A DNA stretch of 64,000 bases, from positions 62,001-126,000 of the forward strand of contig NZ_BMHI01000006.1 of NCBI RefSeq assembly GCF_014640635.1, given 5' to 3'. The translations under genes and the position numbers were made by a program. The notes under the pieces were generated by a model, which did not search any database, had not been told where the DNA came from, and saw only the letters and a program-made list of their open reading frames with translations. Positions 1 through 64,000 of this stretch are shown here, piece after piece; position 1 is the stretch's first letter, and each line of letters starts with the position of its first letter. This DNA is from Flexivirga endophytica (GTDB lineage: Bacteria > Actinomycetota > Actinomycetes > Actinomycetales > Dermatophilaceae).

Positions 1-984
1 GGGCTGAGTGCGGAGCTGCACCAGTCGCCGGAGAGCTGGCGGTGGCGGTTCGCGCCCTCGGGGCTGGAGAACACCGGGCACCGGCTCACCGGCGACGCGC
101 AGATCGGTGAGTGGCTGTCGCGCGAGATCACCAACCTGGTGGCCGCGGCGCGGCGGGCCGCGACGCTGCCCGGGGACGGTCCACGACTGGCAGCGGCGTT
201 CGCCGCCGTGCTCTTCGCGCCGATGAACACCCGCGGCCGGTGGTACGAGCTGCAAGAGCTGATCGTCGCCGGGCTGGAAGCTCTCGGTGATGACGACGCG
301 AGCGATCACCGAGCGCTGCTGGAGAACGACCTGGGCTGGATCAATGCGTTGCTCGGCAGTCCCGCCCAGGCCGTGCCGCATCTGGAGCGTGCGCTCGCGC
401 ACTGGCGGAAGGTCGGCCAGCGCAGGGGCGAGGCCACCACCCTGCGCGTGTTCGCCCGTGCCCTCAGTGGCACCGGCCAGGGCCTCGAGAGCATCGAATG
501 TGCCCGCAGCGCGCTGGCGATCTTCCGGGAGCTCGAGGTCCGCGAAGGCCAACTCGACTGCCTGATCGCGATCGGCCTACAGGCGGCGGCGTTGGGCGAT
601 CTCGAAGCGGCGATCGCGGCGCATGAGGAAGGCATCGCGATGGCCGAAGGGTATGGCGACCTCTGGCACGCCGGGGTGCTCGTCGGCAACGTCGCGGACC
701 TGCACCGGCGATCCGGTGATCTCACGCGAGCGGTCACTCAGTTCGAGCGAGCGCTGCGGATGGACCGCGACTCCGGCAACGCCCGCACCTATTTCGAGGC
801 CGAACACCTCTGGGGCCTCGGCCGCGCCCGGCACGAGCAGGGTGACGGCCGGACCGCACGCGGGTGCTGGGACCGGTCGGCCAAGATCCTCTACGAGCTC
901 GGCCTCATCGGCAGCGAGGAGTACGACTCCCTGCTGGCCGAGCCGGTGCCCGCCACCCCGGACGTAATCGCCCGCCAGCTCTGA
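1..984 (+). CDS. Partial: TPR-rich tail of a large transcriptional regulator (AfsR/SARP-like)
   Basis: The frame is open at base 1 and ends at TGA 982-984, so these are the last 327 residues of a gene that starts outside the window. From about residue 65 the protein is a chain of helical repeats with tetratricopeptide spacing (PAQAVPHLERALAHW, GDLEAAIAAHEEGIAMAE, GDLTRAVTQFERALRMDRD), rich in Ala, Leu, Arg and Glu, with no membrane segment. Such tails are typical of large actinobacterial activators built as DNA-binding part, NTPase, then TPR, where the TPRs sense a ligand or partner. Neither the DNA-binding part nor the NTPase is visible here, so the class is inference. The methyltransferase pair follows after 91 bases and could be its target, but nothing in the sequence proves it. 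Confidence 0.7.
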   Translation, partial: GLSAELHQSPESWRWRFAPSGLENTGHRLTGDAQIGEWLSREITNLVAAARRAATLPGDGPRLAAAFAAVLFAPMNTRGRWYELQELIVAGLEALGDDDASDHRALLENDLGWINALLGSPAQAVPHLERALAHWRKVGQRRGEATTLRVFARALSGTGQGLESIECARSALAIFRELEVREGQLDCLIAIGLQAAALGDLEAAIAAHEEGIAMAEGYGDLWHAGVLVGNVADLHRRSGDLTRAVTQFERALRMDRDSGNARTYFEAEHLWGLGRARHEQGDGRTARGCWDRSAKILYELGLIGSEEYDSLLAEPVPATPDVIARQL

Positions 985-1075
985 ACGCCGCCGGTGTAGC
1001 GCGGATGAACCAGCGATAAAGCGCCTCCTCTCAGGCTGCGTGGATCACCACACGGAGCCACAGGGGGACTCACGC

Positions 1076-1903
1076 ATGACCACGAGCGACACCACGACCA
1101 CTGAATACGTCTTCGACAGCCCGTCGGTCCAGGGGCGTCAGCAGTTGAACCACCTGCAGACACTGCTGGACCCGATCACCACGGGCGTCCTCGACGACAT
1201 CGGCGTCTGGCCCGGCAACCGGTGCCTGGACCTGGGGTCAGGAGGAGGATCGATCGCCCGATGGCTCGCCGACCGGGTCGGGCCGACGGGTCAGGTCGTC
1301 GCCGTGGACCTCGACACCGAGCAGATTGATGTGCCGTCCAGAGTCCAGGTCCACGGGCACGACATCAGGGACGGCCTGCCGGTCGACGGCCCGTTCGACC
1401 TGATCCACGCACGACTGGTGCTGATGCACCTGCCCAACAGGGAAGGCATCCTCCGCGACCTCGTCGACGCACTCGCTCCCGGCGGCTGGCTCGTCCTGGG
1501 CGAGACGCCCGACCGACCGCAGGAGGTCCTCGCCGCGCCCACTGCAGCCGACGCCGAACTGGCGGACCGCGTGCTGCGCACCGGCCTGCGCGTGGTTTCC
1601 GCGGCGGGTGTCGCACTCGACTGGGCGTATGCCGTCGAGCAGCGCATGGCGGCCGCCGGTTTGGTGAGCATCCGCGGCAACGAGTACAGCCCGATGGTGA
1701 CTGGCAGTGACGCCGGTGCACTCCTCATGGGCACCTACGTCGCACAGGTCAAGCCGTTGCTCCTGGACGCGGGGCTGACTGAGGACGAACTGTTCCGCTA
1801 CCACGCGTTGATGCGCGATCCGCGGTTCCGGGCCTGGCCGTTCCTGCGCCTGGTCACGACCGCCGGCCGTAAGCGGGCCGGGGACGCGGAGCAGACGCGA
1901 TGA
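1076..1903 (+). CDS. Class I SAM-dependent methyltransferase
   Basis: A 275-residue soluble protein with a Rossmann methyltransferase core. Motif I reads CLDLGSGGGSIARWL at about residues 50-64, the acidic end of strand 2 follows as VVAVDLD, and the post-motif region FDLIHARLVLMHLP matches the ubiE/Methyltransf_11 group. It transfers a methyl group from S-adenosylmethionine to an acceptor I cannot name. ATG 1076 was chosen because AGGGGGA lies at 1062-1068. Its stop overlaps an ATG in ATGA at 1900-1903, where the next gene, a close paralogue, begins. Both proteins start with the same pattern (Y-x-F-D-S-x-S-x-Q-G-R-Q-Q), pointing to tandem duplication. Confidence 0.85.
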   Translation: MTTSDTTTTEYVFDSPSVQGRQQLNHLQTLLDPITTGVLDDIGVWPGNRCLDLGSGGGSIARWLADRVGPTGQVVAVDLDTEQIDVPSRVQVHGHDIRDGLPVDGPFDLIHARLVLMHLPNREGILRDLVDALAPGGWLVLGETPDRPQEVLAAPTAADAELADRVLRTGLRVVSAAGVALDWAYAVEQRMAAAGLVSIRGNEYSPMVTGSDAGALLMGTYVAQVKPLLLDAGLTEDELFRYHALMRDPRFRAWPFLRLVTTAGRKRAGDAEQTR

Positions 1904-1914
1904 CGGGAGACACC

Positions 1915-2722
1915 ATGACGAGCGACTACATCTTCGACAGCGCGTCGCCCCAAGGTCGGCAACAGGTCGGCCACATAGAGCAGATCTTCGACCCGATCAC
2001 GACTCGATTCCTCGACGATGTCGGGGTCACGCCAGGCGCACGGTGCGTGGAGGTCGGGCCTGGGTCGGGATCGATCTGCCGTTGGCTGGCCGATCGGGTC
2101 GGCGCGGCTGGTCGGGTCGTCGCCGTCGACGTCGCCCACCGCGCAACTCGACGTACCGGCACAGGTGGAGGTCTATCGGCACGACATCGGTGCGGGTGTG
2201 CCCACGGACGGCCCGTTCGACCTGATCCATGCCCGCTTCGTGTTGATGCACCTACGAGACCGGGAGAACCTTCTCCGGATGCTGGTCGACGCGCTGGCGC
2301 CCGGCGGGCTGCTCGTTCTCGGCGAGTCTCCCAATCGGCCGCAGGAGGTCCTGTCCGCGCCGAGCGACGCCGATGCGGAACTGGCGCACCGCGTCGTCGG
2401 CGCGGGAGTGAGGCTCACCGGACGGGTCAGCACCGCCTGGGAGTGGGCCCACGAGGTGGAGCAGCATTTCGTGGCTGCTGGGCTGCGAGACATCCGCGGC
2501 TTCGAGTACACGCCGATGGTGACCGGTGGCGACGCTGCGGCGCTGTTGGTGAGCACACATGTCGCACAGGCCGAGCCGCTACTGCTCAAGGAAGGCGTCA
2601 CCCGGGACGAGATCAGCCGGTTCCATCTGTTGATGCGCGATTCACGGTTCCGGGCCTGGCCGTTCATGCGGATGGTCATGACCGCCGGCCGTAAGCCGCT
2701 CGACACGGAGGTGGGCCGATGA
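1915..2722 (+). pseudogene. Second, tandem methyltransferase broken by a +1 frameshift
   Basis: This is a paralogue of the gene just upstream. The first 74 or so residues (SDYIFDSASPQGRQQ to GRVVAVDVA, with motif I as VEVGPGSGSICRWL) lie in the frame of ATG 1915. The rest (TAQLDVPAQVEVYRHDI to the end) lies in the +1 frame and stops at 2720-2722. Compared with the intact neighbour there is one extra C in the CCC run at 2135-2137; removing it gives DVATAQLDVP against DLDTEQIDVP, with no other gap. ATG 1915 has GGGAGA at 1904-1909; ATG 1900 is an alternative. The part after the break shows no further damage, so the lesion is recent, or a sequence error. Confidence 0.8.
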
Positions 2723-3768
2723 GCGAGCGCAGCGAGCGACACATTGGACTGAGCCGGCGGATGTTCTCGTTGGTCGCAGTCCTGGCACTGGCACTCACCG
2801 CCGCCGTGTTGCCTGGCTCGGGCCGAGCCACTGCGGTGGCGAGTCCCAATCGTGGTCACCTCGTCACAATGTGCTTGGCGCCCAAGGCTTTTCCGAGCTT
2901 CGAGCACACCGTGCGCGTGCCGGCGTTCCTCGTGGCGACTCTGCTGCGGACGACGGCGTCATACCGAGGGCCGTGTGCGGCGTATGGCGAGTCGGCCCCG
3001 CGCGGTGACGGGCGACTGACGGCATACAGCCAGCAGGAGCACGGCAAGCCCGCCGCGATCGGCGTCGTCCTGCCGACGTCGACGCTGCGCGGGTTGCCGC
3101 ACGATCCGCCGACCGACGGCAAGTGGTGCTACGACAAGAACGGCGACGGCACGGTCGACCCGATGATGGAGTGCGCCAACGGTTACGGCAGCGTGCTGGA
3201 CCTGGACGGGAGTTTCCGACGTGACGTCGAGACGCCGTTCAAGTACCTGATGATCGACTGGAACCCGCACGGGCACGGCCCGCCGAACGTCTATGACCGG
3301 CCGCACTTCGACGCCCACTTCTACCTGCAGGCCGACGCCTCACGCCGCGCCATCCGTCCGGGGCCGTGCCCGGAGCTGGTCAACTGCGAGGACTTCGAGC
3401 TCGGCAAGAAACTACCGGCCGCGAAGTACCGGCCGAGTGATTTCGAGGATCTGGACGCTCAGTCACCCGGGATGGGCAACCACCTGATCGACCGGACCGG
3501 GCCGGAATTCCACGGCAAGCCCTTCACCCACACGTTCATCTACGGCACCTGGGATCGCGACGTGACCTTCTACGAGCCGATGATCACCGAGCAGTACCTG
3601 GACGAGCTCGCGGACGGGACACGCGATGACGCCTGCGTGCCGATCAAACAGGCGGAGGCGTTCCAGCAATCCGGTTGGTATCCAACGCGATACTGCATGC
3701 GCCATCGCGACAATCGGGACGAGATCACCATCTCGCTCGAGGGGTTCGTCCACCGCGCGGCGAGCTGA
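2719..3768 (+). CDS. Tat-type exported protein of unknown function with His-rich motif
   Basis: 349 residues. The N-terminus carries a twin-arginine-like signal (LSRRMFSLVAVLALALTAAV) with a likely cleavage after ATAVA, so the mature protein is extracytoplasmic. The middle holds a striking cluster, DWNPHGHGPPNVYDRPHFDA, followed by HFYLQ, giving four closely spaced histidines as in metal-binding sites. Cysteines are scattered (KWCYDKNGDG, MECANGYG), and KNGDGTVD resembles a calcium loop. I recall similar secreted proteins under the TTHB210-like/DUF5602 label, but cannot verify this. The start overlaps the preceding stop (ATGA, 2719-2722), so it is probably the third gene of the methyltransferase operon. 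An internal ATG at 2761 would leave a plain Sec signal. Confidence 0.65.
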   Translation: MSERSERHIGLSRRMFSLVAVLALALTAAVLPGSGRATAVASPNRGHLVTMCLAPKAFPSFEHTVRVPAFLVATLLRTTASYRGPCAAYGESAPRGDGRLTAYSQQEHGKPAAIGVVLPTSTLRGLPHDPPTDGKWCYDKNGDGTVDPMMECANGYGSVLDLDGSFRRDVETPFKYLMIDWNPHGHGPPNVYDRPHFDAHFYLQADASRRAIRPGPCPELVNCEDFELGKKLPAAKYRPSDFEDLDAQSPGMGNHLIDRTGPEFHGKPFTHTFIYGTWDRDVTFYEPMITEQYLDELADGTRDDACVPIKQAEAFQQSGWYPTRYCMRHRDNRDEITISLEGFVHRAAS

Positions 3769-3808
3769 GTGTCATGGGGGATGTGATCGCACTTGGGGGA
3801 GTGCGCGG

Positions 3809-4429
3809 ATGCCGACCAGCAACACGTTGATCACCTTCATGGGTGCGGCGCTCGCCGTGCTGCTGGTCCCCGGCCCGTCCGTCGCGTATGTGATGTCACG
3901 CAGCATCGCGCACGGTCGGGCGGCCGGGCTGGTCTCGATGCTCGGCCTGGAGACGGGTGCGATGCTGCACATGTGTGCCGCCGCCGGAGGCGTGGCCGCG
4001 CTCGTGGCAGCATCGCATCCGGTCTACGCGGCACTGCGGTATGGCGGGGCCGCCTACCTGGTGTTCCTCGGGATTCGCGAGATTCGAGCAGCAGTCGGGC
4101 CGGAGGGGGCATCGGCGGAAGGCGTCGTGACGAGGGGCCGCCTCTACCGTGACGGTGTCCTGGTGGACCTGCTGAACCCGAAGTCGGCGCTGTTCTTCCT
4201 GGCCTTCCTGCCCCAATTCGTCGAACCGGTGCGGGGATCCATGTCCGGTCAGGTGATGGTGCTGGGGTGCTGCTTCGTCGTGCTGGCCGTCGTCTGCGAC
4301 ACGAGCTACGCGTTGATCGCCGGCTCGTTCAGCCGGCGGTTGAAGGCGTCGGTGCGTGCGCAGTTGCTGGTCAATCGCGCGACCGGTTGCGTCTTCATCG
4401 CGCTCGGCGTGTTCGCGTGCGCCGCGTGA
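3809..4429 (+). CDS. LysE/RhtB-family exporter
   Basis: 206 residues, mostly hydrophobic, with about six membrane segments. The N-terminal pattern FMGAALAVLLVPGPSVAYV carries the PGP motif of the LysE/RhtB family, and the middle holds DLLNPKSALFFLAFLPQF, the second signature (NPK, FFLAFLPQF) of these amino-acid or homoserine-lactone exporters. Length matches the family norm of about 205. ATG 3809 is supported by GGGGGA at 3795-3800. The substrate cannot be read from sequence. The gene follows the secreted protein by 40 bases on the same strand and may share its transcript. The purine permease downstream has its own promoter. Confidence 0.88.
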   Translation: MPTSNTLITFMGAALAVLLVPGPSVAYVMSRSIAHGRAAGLVSMLGLETGAMLHMCAAAGGVAALVAASHPVYAALRYGGAAYLVFLGIREIRAAVGPEGASAEGVVTRGRLYRDGVLVDLLNPKSALFFLAFLPQFVEPVRGSMSGQVMVLGCCFVVLAVVCDTSYALIAGSFSRRLKASVRAQLLVNRATGCVFIALGVFACAA

Positions 4430-4452
4430 GGAAGTGAGTGTCCGGTCGCAGG

Positions 4453-4458
4453 TACCCT
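4453..4458 (+). promoter_or_regulatory. -10 box of a leaderless promoter for the NCS2 permease
   Basis: TACCCT ends seven bases before ATG 4466 and there is no Shine-Dalgarno sequence before that ATG, the usual picture of an actinobacterial leaderless transcript. No clear -35 element is visible. The same arrangement recurs before the genes at 6121, 57830 and, on the minus strand, 48552. Confidence 0.45.
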
Positions 4459-4465
4459 GCTGCCC

Positions 4466-5929
4466 ATGAGTTCACCCGCCCTCGCGCCGAACGCGTTGGA
4501 CCGTTTCTTCAAGATCACCGAGCGGGGGTCGACAGTCAGCCGCGAGATCCGAGGTGGTCTCGTCACCTTCTTCGCGATGGCCTACATCATCGTGCTGAAC
4601 CCGTTGATCATCGGCACGGTCAAGGACGACGGTGGTCACGGCTCGTTCCTGGGCGGAGGAAGCGACCCGCAGCTGGCGAAGGTCGCGGCGGCCACGTCAC
4701 TGGTCGCGGGCGTGATGACCATCCTGATGGGCGCGATTGCGAACTATCCGATGGCGATCGCAACAGGCCTGGGGCTCAACGCTTTCGTGACGTTCTCCAT
4801 CGCCGCGCTGCCCGATATGACCTGGGCCGACGCGATGGGCCTGGTCGTGCTCGAGGGCATCGTCATGCTGGTGCTGGTGCTCTCGGGCTTCCGGGTCGCG
4901 GCGTTCAAGGCGCTGCCACCGCCGATGAAGACCGCGATCAGCGTCGGCATCGGCCTGTTCATCACCTTCGTCGCGTTCTTCGATTCGGGCTTCATCCGAG
5001 CGGGTGCGGGCACGCCGGTCGAGCTGGGCGTCAACGGTAGGTTGGACGGCTGGCCGTTGCTGGTCTTCTGCGTCGGACTGATCACCGTGATCGCCCTTTA
5101 CGTGCGGAAGATCAAGGGCGCCATACTGATTGCGATCCTGGGCACCACCGTGCTGGCAGTCATCGTCCAGGCGATCTGGAAACCCGGCAGCCAGAACCCG
5201 AAGAACCCGACCGGCTGGGGGCTCAACGTCCCGAAGCTGCCGACCGACTGGATCGCGACGCCGGACTTCGGGTTGCTCGGCGACTTCAGCCTCTTCGGAT
5301 CGTTCGGCAAGATCAGCGTCATCACCGCGCTCCTGTTGATCTTCTCCCTCGTGCTGGCGGACTTCTTCGACACCATGGGCACAATGGTCGCCATCGGCAG
5401 CAAAGGTGACCTGCTGGACGAGACCGGCACCCCGGTCGACGCGCAGAAGATCCTGGTCGTCGACTCTGTCGCCGCAGCCGCCGGCGGTATGGCGTCGGTC
5501 AGCTCCAACACCGGCTACATCGAATCCTCCGCAGGAGTCAGCGAGGGCGCCCGCACCGGTCTTTCCGCGGTGGTCACCGGCGCGCTGTTCCTGCTGGCGA
5601 CCTTCCTGTCGCCGGTGGTCGAGGTGGTGCCCTACGAGGCCGCCACCCCGGCACTGGTGCTGGTCGGCTTCCTGATGATGCAGCAGGTCGGCGGCATCGA
5701 CTGGCACGACTGGGACATCGCGATCCCGGCGTTCCTCATCATCGTGCTGATGCCGTTCTCCTACTCGATCACCGTCGGCATCGGCGCCGGCTGCATCGCG
5801 TTCGTGGTCGTGAAGCTGGCGCGCGGCAGGGTGAAGCAGGTGCCGCCGCTGATGTGGCTGATCGCAGGGCTTTTCGTGATCTACTTCGCGATCGCCCCCG
5901 TGCAGGACGTCCTCGACAAGATCTTCTGA
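4466..5929 (+). CDS. NCS2-family purine permease (AzgA/PbuG type)
   Basis: 487 residues with 12 or more membrane segments. The opening, FFKITERGSTVSREIRGG followed by LVTFFAMAYIIVLNP, is the signature of the guanine/hypoxanthine-adenine permeases of the AzgA branch. Typical later features are GLGLNAFVTFSIA, the helix-10 region DFFDTMGTMVAIG and SVSSNTGYIESSAGVSEG, in the positions where the family binds purine and proton. Length is typical (about 450-490). It should import hypoxanthine, guanine or adenine by proton symport for salvage. The gene stands alone: its own leaderless promoter lies upstream and 191 bases of non-coding sequence follow. Confidence 0.92.
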   Translation: MSSPALAPNALDRFFKITERGSTVSREIRGGLVTFFAMAYIIVLNPLIIGTVKDDGGHGSFLGGGSDPQLAKVAAATSLVAGVMTILMGAIANYPMAIATGLGLNAFVTFSIAALPDMTWADAMGLVVLEGIVMLVLVLSGFRVAAFKALPPPMKTAISVGIGLFITFVAFFDSGFIRAGAGTPVELGVNGRLDGWPLLVFCVGLITVIALYVRKIKGAILIAILGTTVLAVIVQAIWKPGSQNPKNPTGWGLNVPKLPTDWIATPDFGLLGDFSLFGSFGKISVITALLLIFSLVLADFFDTMGTMVAIGSKGDLLDETGTPVDAQKILVVDSVAAAAGGMASVSSNTGYIESSAGVSEGARTGLSAVVTGALFLLATFLSPVVEVVPYEAATPALVLVGFLMMQQVGGIDWHDWDIAIPAFLIIVLMPFSYSITVGIGAGCIAFVVVKLARGRVKQVPPLMWLIAGLFVIYFAIAPVQDVLDKIF

Positions 5930-12324: not shown

Positions 12325-13821
12325 GTGTCGAGCATGTTCATCGATGGGCAATGGTGCGAAGCCGCATCAGGGCAACAGCGCGAGATCACCTGCCCGGCCG
12401 ATGGATCCGTCGTCGCGACCGTTCCTGAGGGCGACGCCACCGACGCAGCACGGGCAGTCGACGCGGCGCGTCGCGCGTTCGACGCAGGGGAGTGGCCCGC
12501 CACGAGTTCGTCGGAGCGCGCTCGCCTACTGCACCAGCTGGCCGACCGGCTGGAGCAGGAGAAGGACGAGGTCGCCCGTCTCGAGTCGCTCGACACCGGC
12601 AAGCGGATGCTGGAGTCCCGGATCGACATGGACGACATCGTCGGGGTGTTCCGCCACTTCACCTCGCTCGCCCAGGCGCACGCCGGCCGCGTCGTCGACA
12701 CCGGGATGGCGCAGGTTTCCAGCCGGGTCGTCACGGAGCCGGTGGGGGTCTGCGCCCTGATCACGCCGTGGAACTACCCGCTGCTGCAGACCGCCTGGAA
12801 GGTCGCACCCGCGCTTGCCGCCGGCAACACCTTCGTGCTCAAGCCGAGCGAGCTCACCCCGCAGACCGCCTGTTGGCTGGTCGGGACGTTGAGCGACCTG
12901 GGCCTGGCGCCCGGTGTGGCGAACCTGGTGCTCGGCAGCGGTGCCGCGGTGGGTGGACCGTTGACGACCTCGCCGCTGGTCGACATGGTGTCCTTCACCG
13001 GCGGAGTGGAGACCGGACGAACCATCATGGCTGCCGCGGCCGGCACCGTGAAGCGGGTCGCGCTCGAACTCGGCGGCAAGAACCCCAACGTGATCTTCGC
13101 CGACGCCGATCTGCCCGCAGCGATCGACAACGCGGTGACTGCGGTGTTCCTCGACTCCGGGCAGGTCTGCTCGGCCGGGACGCGACTGGTGGTCGAGGAG
13201 TCCGTGCGCGACCGGGTGGTCGACGAGATCATCCGGCGTGCCGGGCACATCCGTCTCGGGGGACCGTTCGACGAGCGCGCCGAGTCCGGTCCGTTGATCA
13301 GCGAGGACCACCTCCGCAAGGTCCACTCCTACGTCCAGGCCGCCGTGCGTCAGGGTGCCCGACTGCGTTGTGGCGGGGAGCGCGCCGGCGGAGAGCTCGC
13401 CGGAGGCTCCTATTACCTGCCGACGGTGCTGGACGACTGCAACGGCGCGATGGACTGCGTGCACGACGAGTCGTTCGGCCCGGTGCTCACCGTCGAGACC
13501 TTCTCCGGTGCCACCCGGGACGAGGCCGAGGACGCCGCCACCCGGATCGCCAACGACACCGTCTACGGGCTGGCCGGAGCCGTGTGGACGAGCGACGCCG
13601 GACGCGCGGAGCGTATGGCGGGCCGACTGCGGCACGGCACCGTGTGGATCAACGACTACCACCCCTATGTGCCACAGGCCGAGTGGGGCGGCATGAAGCA
13701 GTCCGGGATCGGTCGCGAACTCGGCATCGACGGGCTGGCCGAATACCAGGAGACCAAACACATCTGGCACAACACCCGCCCCGCTCCGGCGGGTTGGTTC
13801 GCCATACCCGAGAACGACTGA
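12325..13821 (+). CDS. betB: Betaine-aldehyde dehydrogenase (aldehyde dehydrogenase family)
   Basis: 498 residues, standard for the NAD(P)-dependent aldehyde dehydrogenase superfamily. Visible motifs are the oxyanion region TPWNYPLLQ (N150), the NAD-binding FTGGVETG, the general base in [11 protein letters not shown] (E248) and the catalytic Cys in [11 protein letters not shown] (C282). It oxidises betaine aldehyde to glycine betaine. Substrate assignment rests on context: a GMC choline dehydrogenase and a BCCT carrier follow directly. GTG 12325 has a good GGAGGAC at 12314-12320; ATG 12334 is an alternative. The operon is headed by the tandem TetR operators. Confidence 0.9.
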
Positions 13822-29220: not shown

Positions 29221-30858
29221 ATGCCCGCTGCCAGTCGCCCGTCATACGCCAGTGGAACCTCGCAGGTGCCGTTGCTCGGCGACACGATCGGCGACAACCT
29301 GCGCCGCACGGTCGAGCTTTTCCCGGAACGCGACGCGATGGTCGACATGCCGAGTGGGCGTCGGTGGACCTACGCCGAGTTCGACGCTGCGGTCGACGAC
29401 GTTGCGCGCGGCCTGATGGCTGCCGGGGTCGAGAAGGGCGACCGGGTGGGCATCTGGTCGCCCAACTGCCCCGAGTGGACCCTGGTGCAATACGCCACGG
29501 CGCGGATCGGCGCGATCATGGTGTGCGTCAACCCGGCATACCGATCCCACGAGTTGTCGTATGTCGTCAAGCAATCCGGTATGCGGATGATCGTCAGCGC
29601 GCAGACGCACAAGACGTCCGACTACCGGTCGATGGTCGAGCAGGTGCGCGGTGAGTGCCGTGACCTGCAGCAAGTGGTCTACATCGGCGACCCGACGTGG
29701 GACGACCTGGTTGCCGGTGCGAGCCGGGTGACGGTCGAAGAGCTGACCCGGCGAGCTGACGGGCTCTCCGCGGACAACCCGATCAACATCCAATACACAT
29801 CTGGCACAACGGGATTCCCCAAAGGCGCCACGCTCTCGCACCACAACATCCTCAACAATGGCTATTTCGTCGGTGAGCTGGTCAACTACACCGAGCAGGA
29901 CCGCATCTGCCTGCCGGTGCCCTTCTACCACTGCTTCGGCATGGTGATGGGCAACCTCGCGGCGACCTCACACGGTGCCTGCATGGTGATCCCGGCGCCG
30001 TCCTTCGAGGCCGAAGCGACCCTGAAAGCCGTTTCGGCGGAAGGCTGCACGTCGCTGTATGGCGTCCCCACGATGTTCATCGCCGAGCTCGCGCTGATCG
30101 ATCAGGGCGAGCAGACCTTCGACCTGAGCACGCTGCGCACCGGCATCATGGCCGGCTCGCCGTGCCCGGTAGAGGTGATGAAGCGGGTGATCGCGGAGAT
30201 GAACATGAGCGAGGTCGCGATCTGCTACGGCATGACCGAGACGTCGCCGGTGTCGACGATGACCCGCACCGACGACACGCTGGCCCGGCGCACCGAGACG
30301 ACCGGCCGGGTGATGCCTCACCTGGAGGTCAAGATCGTCGACCCCGCAACGGGTTTGACGGTGCCGCAGGGCGGCACCGGCGAGCTGTGCACCCGCGGCT
30401 ACAGCGTGATGCTTGGCTACTGGGAGCAGCCGGACAAGACGGCCGAGGCGATCGACACCGCGCGGTGGATGCACACCGGCGACCTCGCGACGATGGATGA
30501 CGACGGTTACGTCAATGTCGTCGGTCGCATCAAGGACCTGGTGATCCGCGGCGGTGAAAACGTCTACCCGCGCGAGATCGAGGAGTTCCTCTACACGCAT
30601 CCGAGGATCGCCGACGTGCAGGTCATCGGCGTGCCGGACGAGAAGTACGGCGAGGAGCTGATGGCGTGGATCATCATGCGGTCAGGGGAGGAGCCGGTCG
30701 ACGCCGACGCCATACGGGAGTTCTGCAGTGGGCGGCTCGCGCACTACAAGATCCCGCGCTACGTGCACGTGACCGAGGAGTTCCCAATGACGGTGACGGG
30801 CAAGATCCGCAAGGTCGAGATGCGTGAGGCTGCGCGTAAGATCCTCGGTAATGACTGA
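29221..30858 (+). CDS. Fatty-acyl-CoA synthetase (AMP-binding family)
   Basis: 545 residues. The adenylate-forming signature [18 protein letters not shown] (P-loop) is clear, as are CYGMTETSP (A5), the hinge region [19 protein letters not shown] with [14 protein letters not shown], and the catalytic Lys near the end in [12 protein letters not shown]. It activates a carboxylic acid, probably medium- or long-chain, to the AMP ester and then the CoA thioester, in the FadD/FadK branch. ATG 29221 is preceded by AGGAGGT at 29209-29215. The aldose-epimerase gene overlaps its end by 8 bp, so the two are co-translated although their chemistry is unrelated. Confidence 0.9.
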
Positions 30859-31780
30859 GGAACAACAGATTTCGCCGTCGGGCGAGCAATGGGAGATCAG
30901 TCACGGGGAGCAGCGGCTCACCGTGGTGGGCGTCGGTGGCGGCATACGCTCGTATGACATGGGCGGTCGCCCCGTGCTGCACGGCTACCCGGTCGACGCG
31001 AAGGCCGACGCCGGTCGTGGACAACTGCTGATGCCGTGGCCCAATCGGATCGCCGACGGCAGATACACCTTCGCAGGCAAGCAGCAGCAGTTGCCGCTGA
31101 CCGAGCCGGCGCGGCTCAACGCGTCTCACGGCCTGGTCCGGTGGGAGCAGTGGTCGCTCGTCGAGCAGAGCGATTCGACTGTGACTGTTGGTTTTCGGCT
31201 GATGCCGAGCCCGGGGTGGGGCGCCATACTCGATCTGCGGGTGCGCTACGAGCTCGGTGATGATGGGCTGACGGTGACCCCGAGTGCGACCAACGTCGGG
31301 TCGACGCGCGCACCGTTCGGGTTCGGCGCGCATCCCTACCTGACCGTCGGCGAGGACGCGGTCGACGAGCTGACGCTGTCCCTGCCCGCGACCGAATACC
31401 TCACGGTCGATGACCGACTGCTGCCGACCGGGACCAAGTCGGTCGAGGGCAGCGACTACGACTTCCGCGAGCCCCGACCGATCGGAGACGCGGTGGTCGA
31501 CACGGCGTTCACCGGGCTGACCGCGGAGGCGGACGGCCGCTGGCGGGTCACGATCAGCACCGCCGAGCGCAGCACCACGTTGTGGGCGCAGGCCGAGAAG
31601 TTCGGCTACACGCAGGTTTTCACCGGCGACTCGCTACCTCCGGCGCGCGCCCGTCGCGCCGGTGTCGCCGTCGAGCCGATGAGTTGCCCCGCCGGCGCCT
31701 TCGCCACCGGCGAGTCACTCGTGGTGCTCGAGCCGGGGGACACCTGGACCGGCCAGTGGGGCATCGCGCACCGCGGCTGA
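30851..31780 (+). CDS. Aldose 1-epimerase family protein
   Basis: 309 residues of beta-rich galactose-mutarotase fold. The catalytic histidines sit in NASHGLVR and GAHPYLTV and the catalytic Glu in VAVEPMSCP, in the expected order and spacing. It interconverts alpha and beta anomers of a hexose or related sugar; the exact sugar is open, and several subfamilies of this fold act on phosphorylated sugars. ATG 30851 lies inside the end of the acyl-CoA synthetase gene (overlap 30851-30858). A 94-bp palindromic element follows the stop and separates it from the convergent menD. Confidence 0.85.
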
Positions 31781-41788: not shown

Positions 41789-42142
41789 ATGCGTGACCCC
41801 GTACGCCGAGCCATGGAGATCTGCCCGATCGAGGTCGGGGTCGCGGTCGCCGGTGGCGACTGGAAGATGACGACCGTTTCGAAGCTTGCACCCGGCCCGT
41901 TGCGGTTCGGCGAGTTGCAGCGGGAGGTCGGCCCGGTCTCCGCCAAGACCCTCACCCGTCAGTTGCGTGCACTCGAGACCGACGGTGTCGTCATACGCAC
42001 TGTGTATGCCGAGGTGCCCCCGCGCGTCACCTACGAGCTCACCGAAGCCGGTATGGCGCTCGCGGACATCGCCGACCAGCTCGGCAGCTGGGGCAAGAAG
42101 TATGTCGGAGACCCAGCCGACTCCGAATTACGTTCGGGTTGA
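41789..42142 (+). CDS. HxlR-family transcriptional regulator
   Basis: 117 residues from ATG 41789, typical for the family. It opens MEICPIEVGVAVAGGDWKM, with the conserved Cys that senses electrophiles in several members (CPIEVG), then RFGELQREVGPVSAKTLTRQ as HTH and recognition helix, and a wing with VYAEVPPRVTYELTEAG. It probably regulates the divergent flavin oxidoreductase. ATG 41753 and 41723 are in-frame upstream alternatives; 41789 has GGAG-like bases 9-12 nt upstream and matches family length. No clear palindrome is visible in the 84-bp gap. Confidence 0.85.
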   Translation: MRDPVRRAMEICPIEVGVAVAGGDWKMTTVSKLAPGPLRFGELQREVGPVSAKTLTRQLRALETDGVVIRTVYAEVPPRVTYELTEAGMALADIADQLGSWGKKYVGDPADSELRSG

Positions 42143-43648: not shown

Positions 43649-43870
43649 TCTCCCCAGTGTCGACCTATGACCAGGTATAGCGGGCGAGGCCGTTCACGAC
43701 TCGACACTGGGTCGAGGTATGCCGGGTATGGCGCCCGGGGCCGTTCACGACTCGACACTGGGTCGAGGTATGACCGGGTATGGCGCCCGGGGCCGTTCAC
43801 GACTCGACACTGGGTCGAGGTATGACCGGGTATGGCGCCCGGGGCCGTGCACGGCTCGACACTGGGGAGA
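43649..43870. repeat. 222-bp element: terminal inverted repeats around a 52-bp tandem array
   Basis: TCTCCCCAGTGTCGA (43649-43663) is the exact reverse complement of 43856-43870. Between them a unit of 52 bp (first copy 51) starts at 43690, 43741, 43793 and 43845, the last incomplete; the stretch 43661-43689 is a decayed further unit. Each unit holds GCCGTTCACGACTCGACAC, then GGTCGAGGTATGACC and GGGTATGGCGCCCGG, so each carries two GTATGNC motifs and a small CCGGG...CCCGG stem. No spacers, no reading frame of note. It fills the 308-bp gap between the CapA-like and VOC genes, both on the minus strand. Confidence 0.9.
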
Positions 43871-57701: not shown

Positions 57702-57817
57702 CTGCTGACTCCTCGGACCTCGGGCTTGACGCTGTCAGTGCAGCAGACCCGGCTCACCGGCCGCAACGCAATTTCCGCTGACGGCCGGAACTGGTCGCCG
57801 CCGCACGCCCGGACCTC

Positions 57818-57823: not shown

Positions 57824-57829
57824 GAGCGT

Positions 57830-58510
57830 GTGACCGCCGAAGAGGTAGTGCGTGCCCCCGGAGACAGCTCGGGCCCCGCCGTGATGTTGCGTGTCCATGC
57901 GACGCTGCGGCTGCTGGTCGCCGCGCTCATCACCTTCACCGTGATCGTGCAGCTCGTCGAAGCGCTGACCCGGGACGAGAACCCGGCGTCGGTCACCAAC
58001 TTCTTCAGTTACTTCACGATCCAGTCCAACGTCATCGTGGCAGTGGTGCTGGCGGTGGCGGGCGCCATACAGCTGCGTGGACCGGACCCGCACTGGCTCG
58101 ACCGGATCCGCGGTGCGGCCACGGTCTACATCTCGATCACCGGCGTCGTCTACGCGCTGCTGCTCAGCAACACGGACGTCAACACGCCGCTGCCGTGGGC
58201 GAATGTCGTCCTGCACTATTTCGTGCCGATCGCGATGGTGGTCGACTGGCTCGTCGATCTGCCCGAGCGGCGCATCGAATTCCGTTCTGCGCTCGTGTGG
58301 TTGGCCTATCCGATCGTCTACTTGGGCTACAGCCTGATCCGCGGTCCGATCGCCGACTGGTACCCCTATCCCTTCCTCGACCCGGGTCCGCACGGCTACG
58401 GCTACGTCGCGGTGATGAGCGTGTGTGTCGCGATCGTGGCCGCCGTTTTCGTCGCGGTCGTCGCCGGAGCCACCCGGCTGCCCGGCCGAATGATCCAGTG
58501 GCGCGACTGA
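57830..58510 (+). CDS. Pr6Pr-family integral membrane protein
   Basis: 226 residues with six membrane segments (about 22-45, 60-82, 92-110, 118-138, 150-170, 185-210). The segments NFFSYFTIQSNVI and LHYFVPIAMVVDWL, with DVNTPLPWANVV and YPYPFLDP, are those of the bacterial Pr6Pr group related to the eukaryotic AIG1/ADTRP hydrolases. A Thr in FFSYFT and a His in LHYF are the candidate catalytic pair of that family. The bacterial role is not known. GTG 57830 is the start; the next gene overlaps by 13 bp. Confidence 0.8.
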   Translation: MTAEEVVRAPGDSSGPAVMLRVHATLRLLVAALITFTVIVQLVEALTRDENPASVTNFFSYFTIQSNVIVAVVLAVAGAIQLRGPDPHWLDRIRGAATVYISITGVVYALLLSNTDVNTPLPWANVVLHYFVPIAMVVDWLVDLPERRIEFRSALVWLAYPIVYLGYSLIRGPIADWYPYPFLDPGPHGYGYVAVMSVCVAIVAAVFVAVVAGATRLPGRMIQWRD

Positions 58511-59613: not shown

Positions 59614-59623
59614 GACGGTCGGA

Positions 59624-60079
59624 TCAGGGTTGGTTCAGCGTGCGCACCGCGGCGACGAGCGGAGCCAGCTGGGGATCCTCAGCCGCGGTGTCGAGCGCTT
59701 TGCGCAGTGCTCGGTCGTTCGTCGGCCGTGCCTTCTTCAGCAGCTTGAACCCCGCGTCGCTGACGTCGGTGTAGATGCCGCGCCGATCGGTCGGGCACAG
59801 GTATCGGGCGAGGAGCCCGCGATCCTCCAACCGGGTCACCAGTCGGGTGGTCGCGCTCTGACTGAGTACGACGGCGTCGGCGACCTGTCGCATCTGCAGG
59901 TGGCCGCCTTCGTCCTCGGTCTGCCGGCTGAGCACGTCGAGGAGTGAGTATTCGCGGACGCTCAGGTCGTGCGCGCTCTGCAGGGCGCGCTCGACCTGCG
60001 TCTCGATCTTGGCGTGCAGCAGCGAGAGCGCGGCCCATCCGCTGGCGAGCGCAGTGAGTTTCGGATCGGTGGCGGTCAT
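59624..60079 (-). CDS. MarR-family transcriptional regulator
   Basis: 151 residues, typical. A helical dimerisation start (LTALASGWAALSLLHAKIE) precedes the winged helix LQMRQVADAVVLSQSATTRL with VTRLEDRGLLARYLCPTDRR (the D-x-R wing). It probably represses the MFS exporter gene 91 bp upstream on the same strand and possibly itself. ATG 60079 has AGGGAG upstream. A perfect 8-bp inverted repeat lies 44 bp before the start and is a possible operator. Confidence 0.9.
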   Translation of the reverse strand: MTATDPKLTALASGWAALSLLHAKIETQVERALQSAHDLSVREYSLLDVLSRQTEDEGGHLQMRQVADAVVLSQSATTRLVTRLEDRGLLARYLCPTDRRGIYTDVSDAGFKLLKKARPTNDRALRKALDTAAEDPQLAPLVAAVRTLNQP

Positions 60080-60122
60080 CGGTGACTCCCTGCTGGTGCT
60101 GCGTGTTCGGCGGCTGCGCGAA

Positions 60123-60142
60123 TAGCCGTCGTATGACGGCTA
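60123..60142. promoter_or_regulatory. Inverted repeat between the MFS and MarR genes
   Basis: TAGCCGTC (60123-60130) and GACGGCTA (60135-60142) are exact reverse complements around GTAT. It is located between the MFS stop and the MarR start, so it may be a MarR operator or a short terminator. The centre contains a GTATGNC motif. Confidence 0.45.
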
Positions 60143-60170
60143 CTGGCGCCTGCAAGTTTACCTCTCGTCG

Positions 60171-61352
60171 TCAGGCGCACGATGTCTGCGCGAGGGATGG
60201 TGCTCGGCTCGGCCGACGCTCCAGAGCGGCCGACCAGATCGCGAGGCCGAGCGCCGTGGCCACCAGAAGGGCGCCGACCCAGTTCGGCGCGGTGTAGCCG
60301 AGCCCGGCTCCGATGACGATGCCGCCCAGCCAGGCGGAGAGGGCGTTGCCCAGGTTGAAGGCACCGATGTTGACCGCCGATGCCAGGGTCGGCGCGCCGT
60401 GCGCCTGGTCCAGGACTCGCTTCTGCAATGGCGGCACCGTGGCGAAGCCGAGGCCACCGACCAGCATGATCGTCAGCGCTGCCAGCACCTTGTTGTGCGC
60501 GGTCACGGTGAAGGCCAGCAGGACCAAGGACAGCCCGCCCAGGGTCACGAAGAGCATGGGCATGAGATTGCGGTCGGCGAACTTCCCACCGACCAGGTTG
60601 CCGACGAACATGCCGACGCCGAACAGCACGAGCAACCAGGTGACGGCACCCTCGGAGTAGCCCGCGACCTCGGTCATCATCGGCGCGATGTAGGTGATCG
60701 CGGCAAAGACGCCACCGAAGCCGAGGACCGTCATGGCCATCGCGAGCACCACCTGGATGTTGCGGAACGCCGCGATCTCGCCGCGGAGGTTCGCACTCTG
60801 CGACCGCGGCATCGGCGGAACGAGTTTCGCAATTCCGAGCAGGCCGATCACGCCGAGGCCGGCAACGGCGGCAAACGTGACCCGCCAGCTGATCGTCTGG
60901 CCGATGAGGGTGCCTGCGGGTACACCGACGATGTTGGCGACGGTGAGTCCGGTGAACATGATGGCGATCGCGGCAGCCTTTCGGGCCGGCGCGACGAGGT
61001 CCGCGGCGGCGACCGCGCCGATGCCGAAGAACGCGCCGTGTGCGAGGGAAGCGATGATCCGCCCGGCCAGCATGATCCCGAAGGTCGGTGCGAGAGCCGA
61101 CAGCGCATTGCCGACGATGAAGAGGCCCATCAGGAACATGAGCATGGTCTTGCGGCTGATCTTGTTGCCGAGCGCGGTCATGACCGGCGCGCCGAGCATG
61201 ACTCCGATGGCGTAGCCGCTGACGAGCAAGCCGGCCATCGGGATGGAGACGCCATACGAACCGGCGATCTGCGGCATCAACCCCATCACCACGAACTCAG
61301 TCGTGCCGATGCCAAAGGCGCCGATCGCCAGGGCGAGGAGTGCGAGAGGCAT
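60171..61352 (-). CDS. MFS efflux transporter (AraJ/Bcr-type, DHA1)
   Basis: 393 residues with 12 membrane segments. FGIGTTEFVVMGLMPQIAGS is the motif D1 region of drug/proton antiporters of the AraJ/CmlA/YdhP type. The loop-2/3 signature reads VMTALGNKISRKTMLM, and the motif C region of exporters is FTGLTVANIVGVPAGTLIGQ. It exports small molecules, probably drugs or sugars. ATG 61352 has AAAGG upstream; the frame stays open above it but without family likeness. A MarR regulator follows on the same strand and a VOC protein is divergent, which suggests a resistance or detoxification island. Confidence 0.9.
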   Translation of the reverse strand: MPLALLALAIGAFGIGTTEFVVMGLMPQIAGSYGVSIPMAGLLVSGYAIGVMLGAPVMTALGNKISRKTMLMFLMGLFIVGNALSALAPTFGIMLAGRIIASLAHGAFFGIGAVAAADLVAPARKAAAIAIMFTGLTVANIVGVPAGTLIGQTISWRVTFAAVAGLGVIGLLGIAKLVPPMPRSQSANLRGEIAAFRNIQVVLAMAMTVLGFGGVFAAITYIAPMMTEVAGYSEGAVTWLLVLFGVGMFVGNLVGGKFADRNLMPMLFVTLGGLSLVLLAFTVTAHNKVLAALTIMLVGGLGFATVPPLQKRVLDQAHGAPTLASAVNIGAFNLGNALSAWLGGIVIGAGLGYTAPNWVGALLVATALGLAIWSAALERRPSRAPSLAQTSCA

Positions 61353-61630
61353 TGCGTGGACCTTTCCAAGATTGCGCGTATCGTTTACCGGCGAAGACAA
61401 TAGTTGCACACGCGGTATAAACGCAAGCGCGCATAATTGGACGCGGCTCGCGCACGCGCCAGGAGCGCTGGCTTGCTCGTGTTCGCTGACGGGAGGTGAG
61501 GACGATCCCGTCGCTGTTGCCGGGGCAGGCCGGTGGGACGCCGCAACGGACAGAACCTGACCGGAGGCAGCTCTAGCGTCAGGACTCCGCTCGCGCTCGG
61601 CGAGCGGCCCCACCGACGAGAGAGAACACC
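61353..61630. other. Divergent promoter region between MFS and VOC genes
   Basis: 278 bp without a convincing gene. On the minus strand TTGCGT and TATTGT, 18 bp apart (about 61397-61426), give a fair -35/-10 pair for the MFS gene. The words GTTTACC, GTTTATACC and a similar AGTTTACC before the MarR gene (60157-60164) may be parts of a shared regulator site. On the plus strand TAGCGT at about 61572 could be a -10 for the VOC gene. Nothing else seen. Confidence 0.35.
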
Positions 61631-62005
61631 ATGCAACTTGCGGCAACCCGCATCATCACCGACGACGTCGACACGCTGGTCGGCTTCTACGAGAAGGTCA
61701 CCGGGATCGAAGCGGCGCGCCTGCACCCGTTGTTCGCCGAGTTGCGCACCGAATCCGGTGTGCTGGCGATCTCCAGCTCGCAGACGGTCCCGCTGCTCGG
61801 TGAGAACGTGGCCGAGGCGGCGGCGAATCGCACTCTCGTGCTGGACTTCCACGTCGACGATGTCGACGCGACCTACGCCGCGCTGCAGGGGACGATCGAC
61901 ACCTTCGTCAACGAACCGACCCTGATGCCGTGGGGCAACAAGTCGCTGCTGTTCCGTGATCCCGACGGCAACCTGGTCAACTTCTTCACCCCCGTCGGCG
62001 ACTGA
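61631..62005 (+). CDS. VOC-family (glyoxalase-like) protein
   Basis: 124 residues with two VOC half-repeats: TRIITDDVDTLVGFYEKVTG and LLFRDPDGNLVNFFTP. The expected metal ligands are incomplete in the first half, so it may bind a ligand without metal, as in some drug-binding members. ATG 61631 has GAGAGAA at 61618-61624. It is divergent from the MFS exporter and may belong to the same resistance response. Confidence 0.85.
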   Translation: MQLAATRIITDDVDTLVGFYEKVTGIEAARLHPLFAELRTESGVLAISSSQTVPLLGENVAEAAANRTLVLDFHVDDVDATYAALQGTIDTFVNEPTLMPWGNKSLLFRDPDGNLVNFFTPVGD

Positions 62006-62029
62006 GCGCGGCGTGCCGCCGGCCCGGTC

Positions 62030-62965
62030 TCAGCCGAGATTCCGCTCGACGAATCCGATGATCTCGCCGGCAACCTCGTCCCGGATCGGCGGCTCGTTGT
62101 GCACCTCGTGCCGGTAGCCGGTGTAGACGCGAGTGCGCACGTCGCGGTTGCCGCTGGACCACAGCTGATTCGCGACGTGGTAGGCGCCCTCGCCATACCC
62201 CGCGACCGGGTCCTGGTCGCCGGCGAGGATCAGCACCGGTAGGTCGCTGGGCACTTTGGCGGCCCAGTCGTCGGCGTTCGCTTCGGCATACAACGCCAGG
62301 AAGTCGCGCAGGAAGCGCAACGTCATCGACACCCCGAAGCGGTTGAGCGGGTCGACCGCGTGGTCGGCCACCACACCACGGTCGGCGGCGACCCAGTCTG
62401 TCGGCCCGCGGACGTCGTCATACCGCTCGGTCACGCCGGCGAAGAGCGCCGGCACGAACTCGTCCGCGACACCGGTGCCGTCGCTGTCACCGATGGCCTT
62501 CTCGACCTCGGCGATCGAAAGCTCTTCCGGACCACGCATTTTCGCGGCGATGCCACCGAGCACCAAGCCGTCGACGTGGTCCGGGTGGCGGGCGACATAC
62601 GCGCGGGCGATCATCGAGCCCCAACTGTGGCCGTAGAGGAAATACGGCAGGTCGGGGTATGCCGCCCGGGCGCGCTCACGCAAGGTCGCTTCGTCCTCGA
62701 CGAACGCGTCCCCGTTGGGGGCGCCACTGTCGGCCCACACACCGGACGCCACCGCGGTCGCCCCGTGACCGACGTGGTCGTCCGCGCAGACCACGAAGCC
62801 GGCGTCCAGCAGCTTGCTGACCAGTCGCAGATAGCGGCGGGAGTGCTCACCCAGCCCGTGGACGATGTGCACGATCCCACGGGGCGTGGTTGCCGGCGCA
62901 TAGATCCAGGCGTGGATCCGGTCACGACCGTTGTGGGAGGGAAAGTCGAACTCGGTGAGCGCCAT
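62030..62965 (-). CDS. Alpha/beta hydrolase, monoacylglycerol-lipase/lysophospholipase type
   Basis: 311 residues. The nucleophile elbow GHSWGSM, the oxyanion region VHIVHGLGEHSRRYLRL, the acid in LAGDQDPVAG and the His in YRHEVHNEP make a full triad; HGLGEHSRRY and DDHVGHGAT are marks of the monoglyceride-lipase/PldB group. It cleaves monoacylglycerols or lysophospholipids in the cytoplasm (no signal peptide). ATG 62965. It stands alone, convergent with the VOC gene, with only 24 bp between. Confidence 0.9.
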   Translation of the reverse strand: MALTEFDFPSHNGRDRIHAWIYAPATTPRGIVHIVHGLGEHSRRYLRLVSKLLDAGFVVCADDHVGHGATAVASGVWADSGAPNGDAFVEDEATLRERARAAYPDLPYFLYGHSWGSMIARAYVARHPDHVDGLVLGGIAAKMRGPEELSIAEVEKAIGDSDGTGVADEFVPALFAGVTERYDDVRGPTDWVAADRGVVADHAVDPLNRFGVSMTLRFLRDFLALYAEANADDWAAKVPSDLPVLILAGDQDPVAGYGEGAYHVANQLWSSGNRDVRTRVYTGYRHEVHNEPPIRDEVAGEIIGFVERNLG

Positions 62966-63020
62966 GGGCGGGACCTCTCTCGGTGCGGGTGTCTGCAGAC
63001 TATGCCGAGGAGGTGTGATC

Positions 63021-63096
63021 TGGTGGGCCCCGCGGGGCTCGAACCCGCAACCTACGGATTAAAAGTCCGCAGCTCTACCAATTGAGCTAGAGGCCC
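63021..63096 (-). tRNA. tRNA-Lys (anticodon TTT)
   Basis: On the minus strand the gene runs from GGGCCTC at 63096 to an encoded CCA at 63023-63021. The acceptor stem GGGCCTC pairs with GGGGCCC (one wobble), the D arm contains AGCTCAATTGGTAGAGC, the anticodon loop is CTTTTAA within GCGGACTTTTAATCCGT, and the T arm is GCGGGTTCGAGCCCCGC. Anticodon TTT reads both Lys codons. Standard length, 76 bases with CCA. Confidence 0.95.
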
Positions 63097-63253
63097 TGGC
63101 GTTTGCGCGTGGCAAGCGTAGTCGGAGCCGGTCCACGACCGCACATCGGCCGCTACTATCCGGCGTTTGCGTCCGACACTTCGCGCGCTCCACCGCGCGA
63201 TGTGTCGCACCGAAACCGGCCAGGACGCTGCCGCCTGGGAGGATGGCCGCATC

Positions 63254-64000
63254 ATGAATCTCTACGACCGCCTGCCCGACGCCGACGACCCGGACGAGAC
63301 CTATGCGCGGTTCGTGGAGTGGGCGGCCGAGCGCGACCTGACGCTCTACCCCCACCAGGAGGAGGCGATCATCGAGCTGCTCGCAGGCGCCAACGTCATC
63401 CTCGCGACGCCGACCGGCTCCGGGAAGTCGATGGTCGCGACGGCGGCGGAGTTCGCGGCGCTCGCGGGGGACCGGGTCAGCTTCTACACCGCGCCGATCA
63501 AGGCGCTCGTCTCGGAGAAGTTCTTCGACCTCTGTGCGACCTTCGGGGCGGACAACGTCGGCATGCTGACCGGCGACGCCTCCGTCAACGCCGACGCACC
63601 AATCATCTGCTGCACCGCGGAGATCCTGGCCAACATCGCGTTGCGTGAGGGCAAGAACGCCGACGTCGGCATGGTGATCATGGACGAGTTCCACTTCTAC
63701 TCCGAGCCCGAGCGCGGGTGGGCCTGGCAGGTGCCGCTGCTGGAGCTACCGCAGGCTCAATTCCTGCTGATGTCAGCGACATTGGGCGACGTGGCGATCT
63801 TCGAGGAGGAGCTGACCAAGCGCACCGGGCGGCCTACCGCGACCGTCGCCGACGCCGAGCGGCCGGTCCCGCTGGCCTTCAAGTGGGCGATGACGCCGCT
63901 GCACGAGACCATCGAGGAGCTGCTCTACGCCAAGGAGGCGCCGGCGTATGTCGTGCACTTCACCCAGGCCGCGGCGCTCGAGCAGGCCCAGGCGCTGACG
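63254..64000 (+). CDS. Partial: DEAD/DEAH-box RNA helicase (DUF3516/HelY-like)
   Basis: The gene starts at ATG 63254 and is cut by the window end after 249 codons. It opens NLYDRLPDADDPDETYARF, then the Q-motif-like YPHQEEAIIEL, Walker A ATPTGSGKS (about 60-68), TAPIKALVSEKF (Ia), motif II MDEFHFYSE and motif III MSATLGD. DEFH and PIKALVSEKF are marks of the actinobacterial Ski2-like helicases that carry a DUF3516 C-terminus. It unwinds RNA or DNA with ATP; specific targets unknown. The C-terminal half is not in this window. Confidence 0.9.
   Translation, partial: MNLYDRLPDADDPDETYARFVEWAAERDLTLYPHQEEAIIELLAGANVILATPTGSGKSMVATAAEFAALAGDRVSFYTAPIKALVSEKFFDLCATFGADNVGMLTGDASVNADAPIICCTAEILANIALREGKNADVGMVIMDEFHFYSEPERGWAWQVPLLELPQAQFLLMSATLGDVAIFEEELTKRTGRPTATVADAERPVPLAFKWAMTPLHETIEELLYAKEAPAYVVHFTQAAALEQAQALT

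Follow-up and report, generated by a model that had tools for sequence, protein, structure and literature searches.

What maintains a short asymmetric DNA word at high density in an actinobacterial genome, and what might read it, are the questions raised by a 64-kb stretch of Flexivirga endophytica (contig NZ_BMHI01000006.1, positions 62,001 to 126,000; the window). From about 150 copies of GTATG, about 140 of them extending to GTATGNC, the initial annotation had estimated a roughly sevenfold excess of the heptamer over some 20 copies expected, with even use of the two strands (24 against 23 in the first 24 kb). Counting bears this out: there are 153 copies of GTATG and 143 of GTATGNC (74 on the plus and 69 on the minus strand) where base composition predicts 20.8, and the first 24 kb has 24 on each strand. 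The heptamer is enriched as claimed but is one base short of the full word; since G follows in 139 of the 143 copies, the word is the octamer GTATGNCG, beyond which none of the flanking positions, as displayed, is fixed in the window. Over positions 1 to 64,000 there are 139 copies of the octamer, 71 on the plus and 68 on the minus strand, with 7.0 expected. The word is kept at the DNA level, comes in dialects and is depleted of neighbouring copies on the same strand. The reading favoured here, with a confidence somewhat short of even, treats GTATGNCG as a self-recognition word specific to the family, one that would act like the DNA uptake sequence (DUS) of the Neisseriaceae and be read with strand polarity.

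Results

Enrichment of the word across the genome

The enrichment extends beyond the window to the whole 4.72-Mb genome, which carries 8,019 copies of GTATGNCG (4,048 on the plus and 3,971 on the minus strand), or one per 589 bp, compared with 1,249 copies (642 and 607) of the reversed word used as a control. Further analysis was based on the window together with 20 stretches of 20 kb from the same genome, a sample of 464 kb of which 413 kb are genes predicted by a simple rule of open reading frame and third-position GC content rather than by a gene finder. The sample holds 889 copies (1.92 per kb, both strands counted), at a density of 1.88 per kb in genes and 2.05 per kb between them, in agreement with the earlier observation that the word occurs in coding and non-coding DNA. 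The flanks are nearly free, with A slightly avoided before the word and slightly preferred after it. Genes in the lowest fifth of GC content have 1.25 copies per kb and those of the other fifths 1.66 to 2.22.

The initial annotation had proposed that the DNA word rather than the protein is kept, and that counts no higher than in codon-shuffled genes would speak against this. The predicted genes contain 775 copies as opposed to 88.5 ± 7.9 after synonymous shuffling within each gene, and the excess over shuffling is present in each of the six reading frames. Measured against an expectation of 39.5 copies, derived from the protein sequence and the codon use learned outside motif sites, the excess is 19.6-fold, and an artefact of codon or amino acid use was rejected on these grounds. 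The effect on individual codons is marked. Tyrosine in the context xxG-TAY-GNC-G is encoded by TAT in 289 of 331 cases, compared with 353 of 2,457 elsewhere, while isoleucine in the matching antisense context uses ATA in 153 of 250 cases, compared with 83 of 5,192 elsewhere.

The word is also sharply defined. None of its 21 one-base variants exceeds 1.7 times the expectation of the codon model in genes, and the synonymous neighbours GTACGNCG, GTCTGNCG and GGATGNCG fall below it, at 0.49, 0.54 and 0.74 times; in genomes poor in the word the same three stand at 0.98, 1.08 and 1.47 times, and depletion of neighbours is not seen there except for GCATGNCG. As several synonymous neighbours are depleted as if they had been converted, the drive would seem to act on the whole word and not through one type of mutation. 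A by-product of mutation, of Vsr-like mismatch repair or of codon or amino acid bias would be in keeping with the lack of GTATGNTG in coding DNA (0 copies, 9.5 expected), though the motif-poor genomes also have none (2.2 expected). Set against the several base changes that feed the word, its excess over the codon model and in all six frames, and its equal density between genes, such an origin is barely credible. Vsr-type conversion in particular was rejected on the word counts in genes, as more than one kind of base change feeds the word.

Strand symmetry and same-strand exclusion

The two replication strands are used about equally, with 321 copies on the G-rich strand and 305 on the other in stretches with a GC skew above 0.01, so that there is, as had been supposed, no polarity of the kind shown by Chi or by FtsK-orienting polar sequences (KOPS). 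Nor was a bias of orientation towards the terminus, a feature of KOPS and of SpoIIIE recognition sequences (SRS), found in the 21 stretches, which were not placed relative to a mapped origin or terminus. A word that is present genome-wide, on both strands and in coding and non-coding DNA alike could serve a nucleoid or segregation protein as its binding site, but on sequence pattern the lack of strand polarity along the chromosome, the complete sharpness of a word occurring at 1.9 per kb and its absence from related genera make this very improbable.

Consecutive copies tend to lie on opposite strands, 522 pairs alternating and 360 keeping the same orientation in the Flexivirga genome, and 605 and 396 respectively in twelve other genomes pooled. 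For pairs 30 to 600 bp apart the ratio of same to opposite orientation is 399/567 in the genome of the window, 228/361 in its congeners and 153/267 in other genera, the opposite-orientation excess becoming smaller between 600 and 1,000 bp. Control words show the reverse tendency: among 45 words of similar abundance, the motif included, the share of opposite pairs averages 0.465 ± 0.045 (sd) and the next highest value is 0.549. Variant spellings of the word behave similarly at 30 to 1,000 bp, with 23 opposite and 7 same pairs for the GTATGCG dialect and 56 and 35 for G016, a genome with two dialects. The deficit lies in the same-orientation pairs, up to about 600 bp, while opposite pairs are near or slightly over expectation.

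The same exclusion is visible in codon choice. Where the only other copy within 600 bp has the same orientation, isoleucine at potential sites is spelled ATA in 36 of 96 cases, rising to 83 of 114 where only an opposite copy is present (p = 3.7e-7); it is 37 of 60 with no neighbouring copy and 121 of 241 with neighbours in both orientations. Same-strand gaps of less than 400 bp are scarce (ratios of 0.48 to 0.93), and so are those of more than 4 kb, of which there are 2 with 17.4 expected, stretch ends having cut some long gaps. Strand counts per stretch are also more even than binomial (summed squared differences of 231 for 889 sites in 21 stretches). This is read as each strand needing its own copy about every kilobase.

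An enzyme that moves along the DNA and reads a single strand as it goes would be the likeliest to leave such a pattern, and a Chi-like site is for this reason kept as the main alternative, though a less likely one. Here AdnAB or another helicase-nuclease engaged in resection would read the word on one strand and pass from degradation to recombination, and as breaks have two ends, copies would be required on each strand. This predicts exclusion between copies in the same orientation with opposite copies unaffected, as in the pair counts, the occupancy of isoleucine codons and the rarity of long same-strand gaps given above. Known Chi sites, on the other hand, show polarity: according to the account in PMC8022716, successive sites share a strand more often than chance would give, whereas consecutive copies of GTATGNCG are more often on opposite strands.

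Dialects and distribution within the family

A survey of 58 genomes, 36 from the family of Flexivirga, taken to be the Dermatophilaceae, and 22 from other families of the order, classed a genome as motif-rich if GTATGNCG exceeded three times its reversed control. This holds for 20 of the 36 family members and for none of the 22 others; the remaining 16 family genomes include one, G024, that has a dialect of its own. When words were counted without bias in samples of 16.5 to 80 kb, taken from 20 genomes, GTATGNCG or a part of it came out on top in 10 and a variant did so in two (G016 and G024); in the other eight, among them the weak G009, G019 and G022, it did not lead. The dialects seen are GTATGNCG, GTATGCCG, GAATGCCG together with GTATGCCG, and GTATGCG, and these differ from each other by one substitution or one deletion.

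Flexivirga, G007 and G008 accept any base at the sixth position, G015 favours C there, and the base is C in 60 of 60 copies in G011, 28 of 29 in G021, 27 of 30 in G025, 27 of 29 in G026 and 24 of 24 in G035. Among the GTATGNCG copies at named loci, the spelling GTATGCCG accounts for all 15 of 15 in Humibacillus xanthopallidus, for 19 of 21 in a Lapillicoccus metagenome-assembled genome (MAG), 14 of 19 in Ornithinimicrobium sp. F0845 and 11 of 16 in Arsenicicoccus bolidensis. The word is weak at loci from Leekyejoonella (6 copies in 14.8 kb), Pedococcus (7 copies in 21.6 kb) and Phycicoccus (5 copies in 21.6 kb), and loci from Janibacter (four loci), Kineosphaera, Piscicoccus and Luteipulveratus have 0 to 2 copies each. 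A further 61 lower-ranked loci, which belong mostly to other taxa although the family MAG L254 is one of them, together contain 32 copies in 980 kb.

In G024 the word is one base shorter, GTATGCG being present 46 times with 6.0 expected and GTATGCCG remaining at background (3 copies, 2.4 expected); the same short form occurs 9 times in MAG L254, with 0.8 expected. The main word of G016 is GAATGCCG (56 copies, 3.3 expected) and GTATGCCG is also raised (22 copies, 4.0 expected), so that two dialects are found at once at its loci L070, L152, L196, L305 and L306. This genome has perhaps been caught in a dialect switch.

On a tree of 39 genomes built from five proteins of the com locus, the C dialects cluster in a single clade, the N dialects lie outside it, and the motif-poor genera occupy about nine separate places, counted by eye. 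The dialects are thus broadly congruent with phylogeny, several deep nodes being weakly supported. The distribution suggests one gain and many losses; because several nodes have only 32 to 68% support, repeated gain of the word remains an alternative.

Turnover of the word and word-free DNA

Of 247 aligned comparisons with four congeners, 112 (45%) show an intact word. For control words in the same congeners the figure is 20 to 31% for seven with at least 30 comparisons and 0 to 17% for four with fewer. The TAT codon is kept at 68 of 91 motif positions compared with 42 of 87 outside the motif. Of 78 positions that can be aligned and have the word in at least one species, 7 have it in all five.

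On the same genome, a 7.4-kb stretch of contig C1 (92010-99433) with 58% GC and a weak coding signal lacks the word altogether; five of its open frames gave no Pfam match, and it is probably acquired DNA. Phage TJE1, whose host Tetrasphaera is a probable family member, has two copies of GTATGCCG in 49 kb; the dialect of the host was not checked.

Candidate readers

Eight protein families were searched for by presence or absence over the same 58 genomes and none of the eight tracks the word. ComEC is present in 56 of the 58 (35 of 36 in the family), T2SSE/Tad-type ATPases in all 58 and PDDEXK_1 nuclease domains in 57, the first two also in the motif-free genera. PilM (PF11104) is absent from the five Flexivirga genomes and present in 2 of the 36 in the family (G029 and G024, the latter of the GTATGCG dialect), other pilus genes not having been searched for. 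The genome of the window has NCBIfam matches for ComEA-like and ComEC-like proteins and for LeuS. A pilus-based reader is possible, because Micrococcus luteus, also an actinobacterium, is described as transforming through Flp/Tad pili with ComEA and ComEC (PMC6370729).

A methylation site like the cyanobacterial highly iterated palindromes (HIP), at which an orphan methyltransferase would mark one strand asymmetrically for strand discrimination in repair or replication, would explain the sharp recognition, with no enrichment of one-base variants, and would make the strands count separately; the cyanobacterial words do accompany methyltransferases in the account of PMC4390886. The co-occurring methyltransferase that the initial annotation suggested looking for was not found among the three families searched, PF02086, PF00145 and other classes lying outside the search. 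PF01555 is present in 8 of 20 motif-rich and 9 of 16 other family genomes, PF02384 in 13 and 12, and PF07669 in 10 and 11; the first is absent from the genome of the window and the other two from the motif-rich G001. There is also no excess of decay from CG to TG, GTATGNTG being absent from genes, as noted above, and occurring at 1 of the 247 aligned sites. Taken together, these points make a methylation site rather improbable.

The Chi-like alternative is served by the near-universal PDDEXK_1 domain and by a tandem pair taken for AdnA and AdnB, recovered from 38 and 39 respectively of the 40 loci fetched. These labels are the author's own, assigned from tandem order, length and nuclease domain, and in NCBIfam the candidates match UvrD-like helicases below every cut-off. 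Against it, RecC occurs in 8 of the 20 motif-rich genomes and in 7 of the 16 others in the family and is therefore missing from 12 of the motif-rich, and the AdnA and AdnB candidates are present in motif-free genera and show no more conservation specific to motif-rich genomes than controls do. This last contrast compared 18 motif-rich with 14 motif-poor genomes, grouped by eye, with G016 and G024 counted as rich and G009, G019 and G022 excluded; none of the AdnA, AdnB, ComEC and ComEA candidates was an outlier beside LeuS and two other controls. Terminal-branch rates relative to LeuS are higher in motif-poor genomes for 6 of 6 proteins of the com locus, a shift rejected as a signal of the reader because all six behave alike and nothing in it is specific.

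Individual copies in the window

One copy, at 651..658, is on the plus strand. The four ATA codons quoted in the initial annotation, at 5123, 13802, 30709 and 31223, are all present and each lies at a minus-strand copy, at 5119..5126, 13800..13807, 30708..30715 and 31222..31229 respectively. Opposed pairs are formed by copies at 2957..2964 (minus) and 2982..2989 (plus), within a predicted gene, and at 41989..41996 (minus) and 42004..42011 (plus), in intergenic DNA. Terminator hairpins were rejected as an explanation for such pairs, as 28 of the 35 that lie less than 36 bp apart are inside predicted genes. A 52-base tandem repeat, present four times at 43659-43866, contains GTATG words and so gives rise to a cluster of same-strand copies. 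In the window, only a tRNA gene at 63024-63096 gave an Rfam match that passed the gathering score.

Discussion

A proposed self-recognition word

The dialects that differ by one base or one indel along the phylogeny, the occurrence of two dialects in one genome and the high density together point to a DUS-like reading. On this model a DNA-binding protein linked to the uptake and recombination of related DNA would favour fragments with the word, alleles bearing it would outcompete those without, and it would come to fill the genome wherever the protein sequence permits. The specificity of the reader would shift from genus to genus, giving rise to dialects, and where the reader was lost the words would decay. 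A reader with strand polarity would gain little from a second copy nearby in the same orientation. We infer uptake, a reader, a drive, and loss rather than repeated gain from these patterns. Features of DUS systems seen here are strong over-representation on both strands, dialects congruent with the phylogeny and the ComEC channel, the last shared with motif-free genera. Since the word has the pattern of a DUS but the known uptake machine was not found, it is described as DUS-like and is not filed as a DUS.

A number of observations weigh against this reading. An uptake role is suggested by analogy with DUS, and efficient DUS recognition is stated to require double-stranded DNA (PMC12061091), though the same source cites a 2012 paper in which DUS-dependent transformation of Neisseria gonorrhoeae by single strands shows a strand effect. 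Studies of Haemophilus and Neisseria are reported to find uptake independent of word orientation, and also a gradual enrichment of mismatched forms that is absent here (PMC1939737). Same-strand exclusion is therefore not predicted by the known uptake words; it is least expected of a double-strand receptor and most of an enzyme moving along one strand. Type IV pili serve both of the uptake-word systems known, yet PilM is missing from the Flexivirga genomes and nearly so from the family, and ComEC and Tad-type ATPases are present in motif-free genera too. The copies are not concentrated in intergenic DNA, and convergent intergenic DNA, at 2.18 per kb, is unremarkable beside other classes (1.51 to 2.83).

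The exclusion itself is not uniform. The alternation excess is not seen in two sampled genera, G015 and G026, nor in the window alone (68 same and 70 alternating, or 64 and 70 without the tandem repeat), which is by itself too small for alternation to show. The effect on tyrosine occupancy is weak (TAT in 72 of 89 same and 147 of 163 opposite at 600 bp, p = 0.05) and in congeners is reversed at 150 and 300 bp, and the overall coefficient of variation of same-strand spacing, 0.98, is near random. Two control words exceeded the alternation z of the motif until short distances and self-overlapping words were excluded, and as the sites of the congeners are partly common by descent, the exclusion data sets are not fully independent.

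A more specific form of the self-recognition reading, in which the word is strand-read, with dialects and patchy absence, and has an undescribed reader that is neither a type IV pilus protein, RecBCD nor one of the three common methyltransferase families, is put forward more tentatively. Whichever reader applies, a further genome-filling word, in a Gram-positive family whose related genera switch dialect or lack the word, offers a ready comparative experiment for finding it. An uptake word, if that is what it is, would suggest that self-selective transformation is widespread among these actinobacteria, while a resection signal would represent a Chi-type site for bacteria relying on AdnAB.

Comparison with known systems

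Searches of the literature for the word and its spellings found no report. Three classes of genome-filling words are named in PMC4390886: Chi, the uptake words found in bacteria capable of transformation, and the cyanobacterial HIPs. The initial annotation was reminded of HIP1, and the likeness stands in that both are highly iterated octamers. Both also occur within genes and between them. The likeness does not extend to class membership, because GTATGNCG is asymmetric and not a palindrome; it also lacks the GATC core of HIP1 (GCGATCGC, methylated at GATC and CGATCG) and is not tracked by the three methyltransferase families.

Like Chi, GTATGNCG is a sharp asymmetric octamer, and directional reading would explain the exclusion. 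It is far denser than Chi in Escherichia coli, has no polarity and is found in many genomes lacking RecC. Membership of the Chi class fails because consecutive sites lie on opposite strands, the reverse of the published same-strand test (PMC8022716). A paper on Chi in Proteobacteria mentions unpolarised Chi-like candidates in 16 species of Terrabacteria. For the uptake signal sequence (USS) of the Pasteurellaceae even spacing has been claimed (PMC1939737), a point of likeness; unlike the USS, GTATGNCG is neither strongly extended into its flanks nor surrounded by a halo of mismatched forms.

In its phylogenetic dialects the word is closer to the Neisseriaceae DUS than to HIP1, to judge from the account in PMC3630211, which describes dialects one base apart, another formed by an inserted base (wadDUS) and two dialects in one genome (Simonsiella muelleri). 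In Kingella oralis, according to the same source, 5,918 copies of kingDUS occur in 2.4 Mb and allowing one mismatch adds only 21%. The DUS and GTATGNCG thus share thousands of copies on both strands, dialects separated by one substitution or indel along the phylogeny, and two dialects within a genome. They differ in that GTATGNCG is actinobacterial, has 7-8 fixed bases rather than 10-12 and is found without PilM in five Flexivirga genomes; same-strand exclusion may be a further difference. As part of the same tentative proposal, strand-read self-words may form a new class, to be set beside Chi, DUS and HIP, with same-strand exclusion as its defining feature.

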